This document shows positions 1,954 through 10,876 of a DNA stretch of 64,000 nt, piece after piece; positions within the stretch are counted from its first letter, which is position 1; each line of letters opens with the position of its first letter. The translations under genes and the position numbers were made by a program. The notes under the pieces are model-generated. The model did not search any database, was not told the DNA's origin, and worked only from the letters and a program-made list of their open reading frames with translations. The stretch comes from Bacilli bacterium (lineage in GTDB: Bacteria; Bacillota_I; Bacilli_A; RF39; UBA660): contig JAFWJA010000015.1 in the NCBI GenBank assembly GCA_017511805.1, forward strand, positions 67,098 through 131,097, written 5' to 3'.

Positions 1954-3105
1954 ATGACAAGATTAATAAATAAAATGGATAAAGTTTTATTAGTTTTAGC
2001 TTTTATAATGTTTATATTTGGTCTATTTATGATTTTTGATGCTTCGTCTATGAAATCTTTTTTAGAATATGGTACTAATACTAAATACTTTACAAAACAA
2101 TTAGGTATATTAATTGCGAGTCTTGTTATATCAGTTTTGATAATACTGACCCCGTTAAAAAGATATAAAAAGTTTATGCCAATTATGTGTATAGTAATAA
2201 TTATTTTGCTACTGTACTTAGTTGTTAGTGGTGTAGAAACATCAGGTGCTAAAAGTTGGTTATATATTGGACCGTTAGGACTACAACCAAGTGAATTTGC
2301 TAAAGTAGGAATAATATTATTCGCAGGTTTTTATTATAGATCTAATTTAAGATATTTGAATAATTACTTAGCTGCTTTAATACCGGTTGGAGTAGGAGCG
2401 ATATTTACATTTTTAACATTCTTACAACCTGATGGTGGAACTGGTTTAATTATATTTTTAATAACAATGTTATTATTTTATGCTTCACCAGTTAAAAAAG
2501 AGATTAAAGTTAAAACAACTGCTTATGGAGCATTATTTGTTGTTATAGTTGTACTAGGTTTATTAATAAGTGGTAAAAGCTTATTTTCATCTGTACAACA
2601 AAGTAGATTTAATTTCTTAAAACCATGTACTAGGTATCAAGAAAATACAGGTTATCAAGTATGTAATGGTTATATAGCAATTAATAATGGTAAACTATTA
2701 AGTATTTCACCTGGTAATAGTAATCAAAAGAATCTATACTTACCAGAAGCATTTACTGACTTTATATTTCCAATTATAGTAGAAGAATTTGGACTTATAA
2801 TTGGTATATTAGTAATATTAATATTTATGTTAATTATATATAGAGTCCTCCTAGTAGCAAGGAAGAGTGTTAATATATGTAATGCACTCATATGTTATGG
2901 AGTAGCAATTTATATAGGACTACATGTAATAATTAATTTAGTTGGTGTTCTTGGATTACTTCCTTTAACAGGAGTACCATTACCATTCTTAAGTTATGGT
3001 GGATCATTTGCATTATCTTTAGCGATAGCTTTATCTATTGTTCAAAGAATATCAATTGAAAACTATAACTATATGCAAAAAAAAGTATTAGATAATAGAG
3101 GATAA
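1954..3105 (+). CDS. SEDS-family peptidoglycan glycosyltransferase (FtsW/RodA/SpoVE type)
   Basis: Polymerises lipid II glycan chains in the membrane together with a class B penicillin-binding protein. The 383-aa protein has about ten hydrophobic segments. It carries the family signatures LQPDGGTG, a Pro-rich loop LYLPEAFTDFIF holding the catalytic-position Asp, and the C-terminal GVPLPFLSYGGS. Subtype is not certain: the PEAFTDFIF loop followed by EEFG is FtsW/SpoVE-like. The frame is open from a TTG at 1918, but AGAGGA precedes the ATG at 1954, so I start there. It lies outside the dcw cluster found at 28 kb, which holds the likely PBP partner. Confidence 0.9.
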   Translation: MTRLINKMDKVLLVLAFIMFIFGLFMIFDASSMKSFLEYGTNTKYFTKQLGILIASLVISVLIILTPLKRYKKFMPIMCIVIIILLLYLVVSGVETSGAKSWLYIGPLGLQPSEFAKVGIILFAGFYYRSNLRYLNNYLAALIPVGVGAIFTFLTFLQPDGGTGLIIFLITMLLFYASPVKKEIKVKTTAYGALFVVIVVLGLLISGKSLFSSVQQSRFNFLKPCTRYQENTGYQVCNGYIAINNGKLLSISPGNSNQKNLYLPEAFTDFIFPIIVEEFGLIIGILVILIFMLIIYRVLLVARKSVNICNALICYGVAIYIGLHVIINLVGVLGLLPLTGVPLPFLSYGGSFALSLAIALSIVQRISIENYNYMQKKVLDNRG

Positions 3106-5723: not shown

Positions 5724-6615
5724 ATGAATTATTATAATGAGATAAAAAACAAACTCATAGATAATGAAGTTTATTCAAAAGTAAAGGATTATTCAAAAGA
5801 AAGACATAAAGTTATAACATATTTTGAAATAGGTAAATTATTAAACGAAGCTGGTGGCAAGTATAGAGATAATATAATAGATGAATACTCCAAAAAATTA
5901 GTTATTGAAGTTGGTAAAAAAGTATAATAGAAGAACTTTATTTAGAATGAAGAAATTATATAATGTATTTAGTAATAAGAAAGTGACAACAATGTTGACA
6001 CAATTAACTTGGTCACATTATTTACTTTTATTATCGATAAGTGATTATGATGAAATAATATATTATATAAATATATCTAAAAATAGTAATTTAACTCAAA
6101 GACAATTACAAGAAAAAATAAAAAGTAATGAATATAAAAGAATACCTATTGAATCAAGAAACAAATTAAACAAAAATGAAATTCTTAATCCAAATGATTT
6201 AATTCCTAATCCAATAATAATTAAAAATAGAAATAATTACGAAAATATATCAGAAAAAACATTACAACGACTAATACTTGAAGATATACCATTGTTTTTA
6301 GAAGAATTAGGGACTGGTTTTACATTTATAAAAAACGAATATAAAATAAAGATTGATGATAGATATAATTATATAGATTTACTTCTTTATAACATTAAAT
6401 ATAAATGCTATGTAGTAGTTGAATTAAAGGTAACAGAATTAAAGAAAGAACATACAGGTCAAATTATGGCATATATGAATTATATAGATAAAAATATAAA
6501 AACTATCGAAGAAAATGATACTGTAGGAATTATAATATGTAAACAAGATAATGAGTATGTAATTAAATATTGCTCTGATAATAGAATAATTGCTAGAGAA
6601 TATGAATTAGTATGA
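5724..6615 (+). pseudogene. YhcG/DUF1016-type PD-(D/E)xK nuclease, broken by a 1-base frameshift
   Basis: Two adjacent frames (5724-5927 and a frame read through to 6615) are halves of one YhcG-like protein. The N-terminal half ends IDEYSKKLVIEVGKK and the other frame continues KKYNRRTLFRMKKLYNVF. Removing one A from the A6 run around 5917-5922 restores a single frame of about 296 residues. The C-terminal nuclease part looks intact (DLLLYNIKYKCYVVVELKV holds the Asp and the ExK motif). AAAGGAG precedes the ATG at 5724. This could be a true pseudogene, a homopolymer sequencing error, or a phase-variable switch. Such genes often accompany restriction-modification systems; none is seen here. Confidence 0.8.
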
Positions 6616-6877: not shown

Positions 6878-7333
6878 ATGACTACAAGAAAAGTATTTAG
6901 TATTATTGGATTAGTTTTAGCTTTATTCCTAATTGGGAACATGTTTTTACCATTTTTAGGTGATAGTAACAGTTCATTTAGTTTCTGGGAATATTGGTCT
7001 GAAAGAGAATATACATTCATAGATATTATTGTTCTTGTTGAATTAATAATAGCAGTATTATTCTTTGTTCTACAAATTTGTGGAGTTAAAAAGGATACTA
7101 AATTTGTATATTTTACATTAGGATATTATGTAACATATCATATTGGTTTAATGTTTGAATTTAGTAAACATGATTACATGCAATATACTCAAATCGGTTT
7201 CTGGTTAGGATTTATTGTTTCAATTGTTTTATTAATAATTACAATAATAGGAAACTTAGTTAGTAACGAGCGTAAAGCACCAGTTGCTGCTGTTTCATAT
7301 GATTCACAAACTGGACAACCAATTAATCAATAA
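6878..7333 (+). CDS. Four-helix membrane protein of unknown function, 151 aa
   Basis: Four clear hydrophobic segments (residues about 7-29, 48-72, 79-98 and 107-130) and a short polar C-terminal tail rich in Pro, Ser and Gln. GAGAGGTG precedes the ATG. No family is recognised; the layout resembles small four-helix membrane proteins of Bacilli without known role. It is transcribed alone, with a strong terminator just behind it, and lies between the frameshifted genes and lexA. Confidence 0.7.
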   Translation: MTTRKVFSIIGLVLALFLIGNMFLPFLGDSNSSFSFWEYWSEREYTFIDIIVLVELIIAVLFFVLQICGVKKDTKFVYFTLGYYVTYHIGLMFEFSKHDYMQYTQIGFWLGFIVSIVLLIITIIGNLVSNERKAPVAAVSYDSQTGQPINQ

Positions 7334-7337
7334 TACT

Positions 7338-7370
7338 AAAAAAATATGTGTTTAAATACACATATTTTTT
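7338..7370 (+). terminator. Terminator after the four-helix membrane protein gene
   Basis: AAAAAATATGTGT pairs with ACACATATTTTTT around a short TTAAAT loop, ending in a T run. Confidence 0.8.
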
Positions 7371-7446
7371 GTTGATATGCATATACTACTATTGTACGTA
7401 ATATATTGCGTTTATATAGATTAAAGGAACTAATAACTAGTTCCTT

Positions 7447-8058
7447 TTAAATTTTTCTATATAATCCAATTGCTTTACCAATAATATATACTTTATCTAA
7501 AATAATTGGTTGCATTGTATCATTTTCAGGTTGTAATCTAAAATATCCATCTTCTTTATAAAATGTTTTAAGTGTTACTTCATTATCTTCAGTCATAGCA
7601 ACTACTATTTCACCGTTTCTTGCAGTTGATTCTTTTTGTACTATAACTATATCTCCATCATGAATACCAGCATTTATCATTGATGTACCTTGTACTCTTA
7701 ATGTAAATACTTCTTTTTTTGGTGGAATAAGATATGCTGGTAAAGAATAATATTCATCTGGCATTTCAATTGCTTCTATAGGTGAACCAGCTGTAACTTT
7801 ACCAAGTAGGGGAACATCAACTATTTCTTTTTCTTTATATTCATTATCAACTAAAATTTCTATTGTTCTATTTTTTGAATCTCCCTTTTTTATATATCCT
7901 TTTTCTTCTAGTGCATCTAAATGAGCTTGTACAGTTGCGGGTGAGCGTAAACCCATTGCTTTACATACTTCTCTAACAGTTGGTGGATATCCATTATTGG
8001 CTATACTTTTCTTAAGAAAATCTAAAACATTTTCTTGTTTTACAGTTAATTTATCCAT
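7447..8058 (-). CDS. lexA: LexA SOS repressor
   Basis: Represses DNA-damage genes and cleaves itself when RecA is activated. In the 203-aa protein a winged-helix DNA-binding domain (PPTVREVCKAMGLRSPATVQ, residues about 25-44) leads to the Ala90-Gly91 cleavage site (KVTAGSP), then the S24 peptidase-like domain with catalytic Ser126 (GTSM) and Lys164 (VTLKTF). An in-frame ATG at 8082 exists, but AGGAGG stands 7 bases before the ATG at 8058, so I start there. A LexA box overlaps its own promoter, so it is self-regulated. It is divergent from the 47-aa membrane protein gene. Confidence 0.97.
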   Translation of the reverse strand: MDKLTVKQENVLDFLKKSIANNGYPPTVREVCKAMGLRSPATVQAHLDALEEKGYIKKGDSKNRTIEILVDNEYKEKEIVDVPLLGKVTAGSPIEAIEMPDEYYSLPAYLIPPKKEVFTLRVQGTSMINAGIHDGDIVIVQKESTARNGEIVVAMTEDNEVTLKTFYKEDGYFRLQPENDTMQPIILDKVYIIGKAIGLYRKI

Positions 8059-8080
8059 ATATTTCCTCCTATCTATATAC

Positions 8081-8120
8081 ATAATAACACATTAATTGTA
8101 AAATGTCAAACAATTGTTCG
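8081..8120 (-). promoter_or_regulatory. lexA promoter with LexA box
   Basis: Read on the minus strand: -35 TTGACA (8104-8109), 17-base spacer, -10 TATTAT (8081-8086). The LexA box CGAACAATTGTTTG (8107-8120) overlaps the -35 and differs by one base from the Gram-positive consensus CGAAC-N4-GTTCG. Confidence 0.85.
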
Positions 8121-8128
8121 AAATAATA

Positions 8129-8157
8129 TTGACACGAACAAGTGTACGTAGTATTAT
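8129..8157 (+). promoter_or_regulatory. LexA-box promoter of the 47-aa membrane protein
   Basis: -35 TTGACA (8129-8134), spacer of exactly 17 bases, -10 TATTAT (8152-8157). The first 14 bases of the spacer are CGAACAAGTGTACG (8135-8148), one mismatch from CGAAC-N4-GTTCG. A bound LexA would block polymerase directly. Confidence 0.85.
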
Positions 8158-8178
8158 GTAGTTAAGAGGTGAAGGAAA

Positions 8179-8322
8179 ATGAAAAAATTATTTAAGATTG
8201 TTACTATTTATATTGTTGGTATTATGTGTGTATTTACATTAGTTTGGAGAGTTAGTGATATTGACGAACACAATTCAAAACTGGTTTGTAATGATGAAGG
8301 TGTAGTTGTTTGTAATAATTAG
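8179..8322 (+). CDS. SOS-controlled small membrane protein, 47 aa (YneA/SosA position)
   Basis: The protein begins MKKLFKIVTIYIVGIMCVF: a short basic start, one membrane segment (residues 5-23), then a short acidic outer tail ending in two Cys (VCNDEGVVVCNN). AAGAGGTGAAGG stands just before the ATG. Gene order lexA / divergent small membrane gene / tkt / ... / yneF is that of Bacillus and Staphylococcus, where this slot holds the division inhibitor YneA or SosA. It has no LysM domain, unlike YneA. I infer an SOS-induced cell-division inhibitor from position, promoter and topology; sequence similarity is not shown. Confidence 0.75.
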   Translation: MKKLFKIVTIYIVGIMCVFTLVWRVSDIDEHNSKLVCNDEGVVVCNN

Positions 8323-8343
8323 ACTGTTTTAACAGTTTTTTTT
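8323..8343 (+). terminator. Terminator after the 47-aa SOS membrane protein
   Basis: ACTGTT (8323-8328) pairs with AACAGT (8331-8336), followed by a run of eight T. Confidence 0.75.
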
Positions 8344-8410
8344 AATTTTTCCTTTATTTATTAATTATTATTTGATATAATTATAATGAATAATAAGGGT
8401 GTGAAGATAG

Positions 8411-10402
8411 ATGGATCAAAAAGCAATTAACGTTATTAGAAATTTAGCTTTAGATATAATGCAAAATGCAGGTGCAGGTCATCCAGGTATTACTATGAGT
8501 TCTGCGCCTATTTTATATACTTTGTTTGCTAAAAATTTAAAAGTTAATCCTGCTGTTACAGATTGGATTAATAGAGATAGATTTATCATGTCTGCTGGTC
8601 ATGGATCTGAATTGTTATATGCAACTATGTTCTTATGTGGATATTCATTAATGCTTGATGATCTTAAGGGATACAGAAAATATGATAGTAAAACACCAGG
8701 ACACCCTACATTTGGCATAACACCTGGAGTAGATTTAACTACTGGATATTCTGGTGAAGGTTTAGCAACTGCTGTTGGTATAGCTTTAGCAGAAAAAATA
8801 TATGAAAATAGATATAACTATAAATCAAAAGGAATGTTTGATAAAAATAAATTAGGTAAATTATTTGATTATTATACTTATGTACTTGTTGGAGATGGAG
8901 ATTTAATGGAAGGTATATCTTCAGAAGCAGCTTCTTTTGCAGGTACATATGGGTTAGGTAAATTAATAGTATTATATGATTCAAATGATATATCTGTAGA
9001 TGGAAATCTTTCTAAAACATTTACAGAAGATGTATTAGGTAGATTTGATTCAATGGGATGGGATACACATTTAGTTAAAAATGGTAATTCTGTAGGTGAA
9101 ATAGATAGAGCAATAAAAAAAGCTAAAAGTGTAGTTAATAAACCTTCTATTATTAAGATTAAAACTATATTAGGTGATGGTTTATCTAATCAAGGAGATA
9201 GTTCTTTGCATAATAAACCATTAGCTAAAGAAGTATTAAATGAGTATAAAGAAAAAATAGGTGCAGGATCTATACCTTTTACAGTTCTTAAAGAACCTGC
9301 TTCTTATATTAGAGAACAAGTTGTTAATAGAGGAATAAAGGTATATGATGATTGGAAAGCACTATTTAGTGAATATGTTAAAATATTAGAACCAAATAAA
9401 ATTAAAGAGATAGAAAATATTAATTATAATAATTTTGAATTTGATTTATCTAAGTTAGATTTACAAATAGATTTTGAAAATAAAGAATTATTAAGAGATA
9501 GTAATAATAGAATTATGAATATAGTTGCCTCAAATATGTATAACATGATTGGAGGTAGTGCAGATTTAACTAGATCTACAAGAGTTCAATTAGAAAATCA
9601 AGGTGAAATATCACCAACAAATTTATCTGGTAAGAATATATCATTTGGTGTTAGAGAACACTTGATGGGAGCATGTTTAAATGGTTTAGCAATATCTGGT
9701 TTTAGACCATTTGGATCTACTTATATGGCCTTCTCAGATTATTTAAAACCATCAATTAGAATGGCTGCTTTAATGAATTTACCAGTTACATATATATTTA
9801 CACATGATTCAATTACTATTGGTAGTGAAGGACCAACTCATCAACCAATAGAACAATTAGCGTCTTTAAGATCAGTTCCTAATTTATATGTATTTAGACC
9901 TGCTGATGTTAAAGAAGTACAAGGAACATGGAATGTAATAGTTAATAATAAGATTCCTTCAGTTATTTCTTTACCAAAAACAGAAATAAAAGCAGAACAA
10001 GGTACAAGTGTTACTGAAGTAGTAAAAGGTGCTTATATAGCAGGTAGAGAACAAGCTGTAGTAAATGCAGTTATAATAGCAACAGGAGCTGAAGTTCAAG
10101 TAGCAAAATCAGTTCAAGTTAAATTATTACATGAAGGTATAGATGTTAGAATAATCAGTATGCCTTGTATGGAATTATTTGATGTTCAACCATTACAATA
10201 TAAAAGAGAATTATTCCCAGAAGGAGCTCCAATATTTGTAATTGAATATGGATCTAGTTTTGGTTGGGAAAAATTTGTTCCTAGTTCAGATCATTTATTC
10301 ACAATAGATAGATTTGGTGTAAGCGCATCAAAAGATGATGTATTAAAATATTGTGGTTTAGATACAGATACTATAATAGAAAAAATAAAGAGTTTACTAT
10401 AA
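8411..10402 (+). CDS. tkt: Transketolase
   Basis: Thiamine-diphosphate enzyme of the non-oxidative pentose phosphate pathway that moves two-carbon units between sugar phosphates. The 663-aa length is normal. Visible motifs include GAGHPG, the substrate-binding PGHPTFG, the cofactor-binding VGDGDLMEG, GGSADLT, and GVREHLMG followed by FGSTYMAFSDY of the pyrimidine domain. GGGTGTGAAG precedes the ATG. Its position after the lexA locus matches other Bacilli. The last codons form part of a terminator stem. Confidence 0.97.
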   Translation: MDQKAINVIRNLALDIMQNAGAGHPGITMSSAPILYTLFAKNLKVNPAVTDWINRDRFIMSAGHGSELLYATMFLCGYSLMLDDLKGYRKYDSKTPGHPTFGITPGVDLTTGYSGEGLATAVGIALAEKIYENRYNYKSKGMFDKNKLGKLFDYYTYVLVGDGDLMEGISSEAASFAGTYGLGKLIVLYDSNDISVDGNLSKTFTEDVLGRFDSMGWDTHLVKNGNSVGEIDRAIKKAKSVVNKPSIIKIKTILGDGLSNQGDSSLHNKPLAKEVLNEYKEKIGAGSIPFTVLKEPASYIREQVVNRGIKVYDDWKALFSEYVKILEPNKIKEIENINYNNFEFDLSKLDLQIDFENKELLRDSNNRIMNIVASNMYNMIGGSADLTRSTRVQLENQGEISPTNLSGKNISFGVREHLMGACLNGLAISGFRPFGSTYMAFSDYLKPSIRMAALMNLPVTYIFTHDSITIGSEGPTHQPIEQLASLRSVPNLYVFRPADVKEVQGTWNVIVNNKIPSVISLPKTEIKAEQGTSVTEVVKGAYIAGREQAVVNAVIIATGAEVQVAKSVQVKLLHEGIDVRIISMPCMELFDVQPLQYKRELFPEGAPIFVIEYGSSFGWEKFVPSSDHLFTIDRFGVSASKDDVLKYCGLDTDTIIEKIKSLL

Positions 10403-10413
10403 ACTCTTTTTTT
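10387..10413 (+). terminator. Terminator overlapping the tkt stop codon
   Basis: AAAGAGTTTA (10387-10396) pairs with TAAACTCTTT (10400-10409), followed by T. The stop codon lies in the 3' arm. The TTGACA that follows at 10412 may be the -35 of the next gene. Confidence 0.8.
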
Positions 10414-10459
10414 GACATTTTATTTAAATAATTATCATTATACTAATAATGGTGATTAT

Positions 10460-10876
10460 ATGAGAACATATTATATTTTTAGAATAAATACTATATTAAA
10501 TAAAGGGAATAAAACTGCTATATATAAGATATTAAATAATATTAATAAGTTTGATAAATCAAACTTCAAATTAGCTAAAAAGATATATAGTAAAGTAGTT
10601 GTTTTATTAGATAAAGAAAAGATAGATAGATATCTATTAAAGATACATATGAATGATTTATATTATAAAAAGAAAAATAGAAAACATATAATAGATACTG
10701 AATTTGAAATTAGTACTTTAATAATTAATAATTCCTATATAAAAATAGAGACTACAAATAATATTCCAATTTTTTTAAAAGATCTAATTCCAATATCAGA
10801 TAATATGATATGTATAGATTTTGATTCTGTTGATTATTTTTATTTATCTGAATTAGAAACAAAACTGCTTGTATAA
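10460..10876 (+). CDS. SirA-like sporulation inhibitor of replication
   Basis: In B. subtilis SirA (YneE) binds DnaA and blocks new rounds of replication as sporulation starts. This 138-aa protein lies exactly where yneE does, between tkt and yneF. It matches what I recall of SirA: similar length, an N-terminal YYIF-type strand, and a C-terminal pattern with an Ile-rich strand, then FLKDLIPISDNMICIDFDS and a Tyr-rich end. Similarity is weak and read by eye. GGTGAT lies before the ATG at 10460; the frame is open from 10412 but without a ribosome binding site. Highly AT-rich and Lys/Asn/Ile-rich. Confidence 0.6.
   Translation: MRTYYIFRINTILNKGNKTAIYKILNNINKFDKSNFKLAKKIYSKVVVLLDKEKIDRYLLKIHMNDLYYKKKNRKHIIDTEFEISTLIINNSYIKIETTNNIPIFLKDLIPISDNMICIDFDSVDYFYLSELETKLLV

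Follow-up and report, generated by a model that had tools for sequence, protein, structure and literature searches.

A small membrane protein gene beside lexA, predicted to be under LexA control, is a candidate SOS division inhibitor in uncultured Bacilli

In Bacillus and Staphylococcus, the slot beside lexA holds division inhibitors (PMC13396833, PMC6851548). What, then, is the role of a 47-codon open reading frame (ORF) that occupies this slot in an uncultured bacterium of the class Bacilli, and is it a gene at all? The ORF, whose translation is MKKLFKIVTIYIVGIMCVFTLVWRVSDIDEHNSKLVCNDEGVVVCNN, lies in a 64-kb stretch of DNA (the window, meaning the whole stretch that was analysed) within contig C6 of a draft genome of 1.45 Mb. 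Among named relatives, the nearest are metagenome assemblies of uncultured "Bacilli", "Erysipelotrichaceae" and "Tenericutes", many of them from ruminant gut. A region of 120 bp separates the ORF from the divergent lexA, and this region contains two 14-bp LexA-type boxes with a spacing of 28 bp, each with a near-consensus sigma-70 promoter around it, one for lexA and one for the small ORF (Table 1). A sequence-only reading of the locus had placed one box at the start of the promoter spacer of the small ORF and the other over the lexA promoter. Both can be read directly in the DNA, and a pattern search agrees. Box 2 has a single mismatch to CGAACN4GTTCG. Within the window, the strict pattern CRAACNNNNGTWYG gives three matches, all at these two boxes (one counted on both strands), compared to an expectation of 0.14, and none of 100 shuffles reached three. 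The stem that follows the ORF is too A+T-rich for the terminator scanner; similar stems are found 3' of the small gene in two relatives (L003 and L004).

Table 1. Features of the lexA and small-gene region, in window coordinates
Feature	Position	Strand	Basis
lexA, 203 aa, divergent SOS repressor	7447..8058	-	Pfam LexA_DNA_bind 3e-23, Peptidase_S24 8e-35
lexA promoter, TTGACA-17-TATTAT	8081..8109	-	11/12 consensus bases
LexA-type box 1, CAAACAATTGTTCG, overlaps lexA -35 (TTGACA, 8109-8104, minus)	8107..8120	.	pattern search
Small-gene promoter, TTGACA (8129-8134), 17 bp, TATTAT (8152-8157)	8129..8157	+	11/12 consensus
LexA-type box 2, CGAACAAGTGTACG, opens promoter spacer	8135..8148	+	pattern search
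Ribosome-binding site AAGAGGTGA, 7 nt before ATG of the 47-aa ORF	8164..8172	+	sequence
47-aa single-TM protein gene; predicted helix 3-34; predicted outer motif RVSDID (residues 24-29); C-terminal VVVCNN	8179..8322	+	
Probable intrinsic terminator, ACTGTT-TT-AACAGT + T-run	8323..8343	+	read by eye
tkt, transketolase, neighbour outside the unit	8411..10402	+	Pfam Transketolase_N 2e-102

The order of the surrounding genes had also been likened to that of Bacillus and Staphylococcus. Domain matches uphold this for lexA, tkt and yneF (UPF0154). However, the 154-aa gene between tkt and yneF (window 10412-10876), which had been called SirA-like, gives no Pfam hit to SirA even with the threshold relaxed to E 10, so this point of synteny is unproved. 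Elsewhere in the window, a YhcG/DUF1016 PDDEXK nuclease is spread over two overlapping frames (5724-5927 and 5905-6615, +1), and this split gene at 5724-6615 is either frameshifted or an assembly error.

Across the 1.45-Mb genome, strict boxes occur at six distinct sites: two between lexA and the 47-aa ORF, one 5' of recA, one 5' of ruvA, and two inside genes that, by names read off the sequence, are gyrase/topoisomerase-like and penicillin-binding-protein-like. The intergenic region of lexA and the small ORF, recA and ruvA are therefore the only places outside genes with a strict box, and since the count takes in strict boxes only, weaker sites may exist. A search allowing two mismatches matched at 56 places, with 175 in the control; such numbers are too high to be informative, and most of the places read are intragenic. 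A very small SOS regulon in a reduced genome, counted in strict boxes as lexA, recA, ruvA and the small gene, still devotes a promoter to what would be a tiny membrane effector.

The lexA loci came from the family of the window, where a search at E 1e-60 detected lexA in 323 of 386 genomes, and from GTDB genomes; for 164 distinct loci we read the sequence upstream of lexA. Of these, 134, nearly all from the window's taxonomic family, have in the slot an ORF of 42-62 aa with one strong hydrophobic helix, the start of which is nearly always 40-55 bp past the second box. Box 1 is found in 162 of the 164 loci. Box 2 and the small ORF are both present in 131 loci, both missing from 29 and discordant in 4 (160/164 concordant; Fisher p 1e-27); by eye, three of the four discordant loci have a degraded box, and the fourth has a 32-aa TM ORF. 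TTGACA is located immediately 5' of box 2 in 119 of the 131 loci. On a quick LexA tree there are approximately 20 state changes for the small ORF and approximately 19 for box 2, and among eight independent, well-supported pairs, seven to eight are concordant for the two characters and none opposed. The boxes, the promoter layout, this concordance and the tree pairs all argue for the LexA control that had been proposed, and it is very probable that LexA represses the small gene until DNA is damaged.

The association is with lexA rather than with the genes downstream. Of the 3' neighbors, 60 are tkt, 42 are polA and 32 are other genes, and because the neighbor varies among relatives in this way, the lasting partner of the small gene is lexA and not tkt. 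At two loci (L181 and L246) a gene of approximately 0.85 kb intervenes between lexA and the small gene, which despite this separation retains its own box pair, 29 bp apart, as well as TTGACA, indicating that box 2 belongs to the small gene. The intervening gene encodes 274-290 aa without a Pfam match and is inserted beside lexA behind box 1 only. A profile search of 372 genomes from the window's family detected members in 164 of them; among the best 30 matches, the distance to lexA is 120-235 bp for 28, as counted from coordinates, and the two that remain are the split loci. Given that approximately 18% of the lexA-bearing loci read go without the small gene, it is dispensable. In the class and phylum samples, lexA was found at the cut-offs used solely in the window's family and two other families. 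Three loci of another family of the class (f11; L190, L224 and L227) have a 57-aa TM ORF with near-consensus boxes in the lexA slot, followed by a ynzC-like gene, and this ORF is perhaps a distant counterpart of the small gene. In the loci read from the f8 relatives, both box 2 and a comparable ORF are absent.

The small proteins follow a common plan of a basic N-terminus, a TM helix, a motif predicted to lie outside, a polar linker and a hydrophobic C-terminal stretch. For the 47-aa protein, AlphaFold predicts one helix, at residues 3-34, with confidence over the first ~25 residues and low confidence for the tail. Mean net charge in the family is +2.0 on the N-side and -1.0 on the C-side, so the positive-inside rule favours an N-in/C-out arrangement that would put the C-terminus outside the cell. 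The juxtamembrane motif R-Phi-x-x-Phi-[DEN] is present in 66 of 133 proteins and takes the form RVSDID in the 47-aa protein. The C-terminal stretch ends in Asn plus up to three residues, as in VVVCNN, and the motif Phi-x-Phi-N is found at the C-terminus of 51 of the 133 proteins compared to 3.4 in shuffled tails (maximum 9). A helix and tail conserved among relatives, which the sequence-only reading had called for, are thus seen, the helix in 134 loci and the tail motifs commonly. One helix with a short tail, as that reading described the protein, agrees with hydropathy across the 134 loci and with the AlphaFold helix; the two Cys that it singled out do not hold up as a feature. Two Cys within the last 20 residues occur in 2 of 133 proteins, that of the window and its nearest relative only, and the pair was rejected as a functional feature since the residues are not conserved. 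Searches of the 47-aa protein against Pfam, NCBIfam and PHROGs gave chance-level scores only and no family match, and Pfam and NCBIfam give no sequence-family link from the small protein to any known inhibitor. LysM has no Pfam match in the 47-aa protein and none in 19 relatives. Annotation misses the small protein because family models cover none of its variants, of which more than 130 natural examples of the helix-plus-tail protein are now in hand.

Three paralogues of the small TM gene are located away from lexA and without LexA boxes. The first (L241/L253) is downstream of an XRE gene and opposite an XRE-S24 repressor; its contig also encodes a large serine recombinase. Another (L242/L254) follows a 78-aa gene, and its contig includes a phage-type integrase and a mobilisation relaxase. 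The last (L243/L252) adjoins an XRE repressor and a gene of the replication-initiation type, and a serine recombinase is located approximately 3 kb off. Both genomes with mobile copies also hold a lexA-linked copy. In addition, IMG/VR contig L251 encodes a 76%-identical copy (1644-1781) that comes after XRE-like and phrog_989 genes and before exonuclease/Sak4, SSB-like, primase-helicase and DnaB-like genes, and because of these adjoining genes we take it to be a phage early region. Tblastn detected no homologues of the small protein in named phages and plasmids. At four host loci (L076, L080, L083 and L145) a 62-73-aa HTH-like gene separates box 2 from the small TM gene, and a gene of similar size precedes the mobile copies L242 and L251, which may hint at exchange between the host locus and mobile elements. 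The phage and mobile copies fit a growth or division inhibitor better than they fit a repair factor, without proving it, and offer an independent lead on function.

With only 47 codons and no database family, the ORF could be taken for a chance frame, or for a leader of tkt, with a non-functional protein product. The check on which the sequence-only reading had staked the gene was whether relatives conserve the frame. When this was examined, the frame proved to be conserved and under purifying selection: pN is lower than pS in 28 of 28 independent close pairs (p 7e-9), with values of 0.19 and 0.54 for the window ORF and its nearest relative. Length and helix persist throughout the 134 loci, the gene is retained whether it is beside tkt, polA or others, and when split from lexA, and mobile elements hold copies. 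By pN/pS and conservation, therefore, a chance ORF or leader peptide is for practical purposes refuted, and the 47-aa ORF is strongly supported as a real gene, about as strongly as sequence alone allows. What kind of SOS protein it encodes is a separate question. Small LexA-controlled membrane peptides with other roles exist, such as TisB of Escherichia coli, a membrane-depolarising peptide that has an antisense RNA as its partner. A peptide of this type would slow growth by depolarisation and favour persistence, with no divisome target, and LexA control, small size and a single hydrophobic helix would fit. However, there is no known antisense or regulatory RNA family nearby (Rfam, covering described RNA families, gave no match up to E 1 over window positions 7300-8700), the ribosome-binding site is strong and ordinary, and a simple pore peptide would not need a conserved polar outer tail with two motifs. 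We consider this explanation quite unlikely.

Many partners could also be bound by one helix and a short tail, predicted to be outside, whose C-terminal end is conserved. The protein might therefore be induced in the SOS response to serve as a membrane adaptor, or to regulate some other envelope enzyme, such as a protease, wall hydrolase or transporter, and not be a division inhibitor. Against this stand the division inhibitors that hold the lexA slot in Bacillus and Staphylococcus, and the copies in early regions of phages and mobile elements, which would be less expected of a housekeeping adaptor than of a protein that inhibits host growth or division. An adaptor role therefore seems unlikely.

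Considering its regulation, slot and anatomy, the 47-aa protein is best read as a LexA-silenced SOS checkpoint effector that inhibits septal wall synthesis in the manner of SosA, YneA and SidA, to which we assign a probability of roughly two in three. The TM helix of YneA docks on TM7 of FtsW, and YneA blocks wall synthesis at the septum; models also place SosA and SidA on FtsW (PMC13396833). SidA acts on FtsW (PMC4211646), and SosA likewise targets the late divisome (PMC6851548). Membrane-proximal outer residues of SosA are essential, and SosA accumulates after loss of its last ten residues, and likewise after loss of CtpA (PMC6851548). The genome encodes three SEDS proteins and one S41/CtpA-type protease, and together with these precedents this leads us to favour an SOS-induced block of septal synthesis with proteolytic turnover. 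The three SEDS proteins are encoded at C6:145905, C6:69081 and C10:9974, and one of these SEDS-family (FtsW/RodA) genes is located in the window at 1984-3063, 4.4 kb from lexA. In the proposed mechanism, LexA bound at box 2 in the promoter spacer would silence the small gene, and RecA-stimulated cleavage of LexA would free it together with lexA, recA and ruvA. The protein would insert N-in/C-out, leaving an outer tail of approximately 22 residues after its one helix. The helix may dock on the septal wall-synthesis complex, with FtsW the prime candidate by analogy, and the membrane-proximal outer segment (R-Phi-x-x-Phi-[DEN]) may be what blocks synthesis. A CtpA-type tail-specific protease could plausibly grip the protein by its hydrophobic C-terminus, and the action of this protease would let division resume after repair. 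YneA stripped of its LysM domain stops inhibiting division (PMC13396833), and since the 47-aa protein has no LysM, its short tail would have to work as in SosA, which is the weak point of this reading.

Somewhat short of an even chance, in our judgement, is a broader proposal in which a minimal SOS checkpoint protein of ~45 aa, one helix and a ~20-residue tail without a wall-binding domain, halts septal synthesis and belongs to a family with members both in the LexA regulon of the host and in early operons of the phages and mobile elements of these same bacteria. A copy could then fall under the element's own S24-type (RecA-responsive) repressor, and host and prophage would press the same division brake after DNA damage. 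Mobile elements are possibly using the host's SOS effector, a possible case of borrowing a host checkpoint.

How does the small protein compare with known SOS proteins? It shares small size, predicted LexA control and hydrophobicity with TisB, but TisB has an antisense RNA partner and depolarises the membrane, whereas the small protein has no known RNA family beside it and has a conserved tail that is predicted to be outer. From the class of small membrane SOS division inhibitors it shows the single TM helix and a LexA-controlled promoter, predicted from the co-conserved box. YneA of Bacillus subtilis likewise has the slot beside lexA, LexA control and a single TM helix, and its C-terminus is outer (PMC13396833), as predicted for the small protein; of the YneA-family features, the gene is divergent from lexA, but the outer LysM domain that is essential for YneA activity is missing, and the protein is too short for one. 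Judged by its domains, the small protein is not a YneA. In Staphylococcus, SosA (77 aa) is also encoded divergently from lexA under LexA control, with one N-terminal TM helix, an outer C-terminal tail without LysM and a conserved membrane-proximal outer segment (PMC6851548), and this layout of an outer tail after a single TM helix, encoded beside lexA, is the one predicted for the small protein, although the SosA tail is about twice as long; the comparison is by description only. SidA of Caulobacter, again compared by description only, is SOS-induced and minimal in size, with one helix and no wall-binding domain, but belongs to another phylum and locus; at 29 aa (PMC4211646) it also shows that "very small", a fair term for 47 aa, is no record. 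The small protein is built like SosA and SidA, a likeness by description, and if it does block FtsW, it would define the least that is needed for SOS division arrest, doing without the LysM domain that YneA needs.
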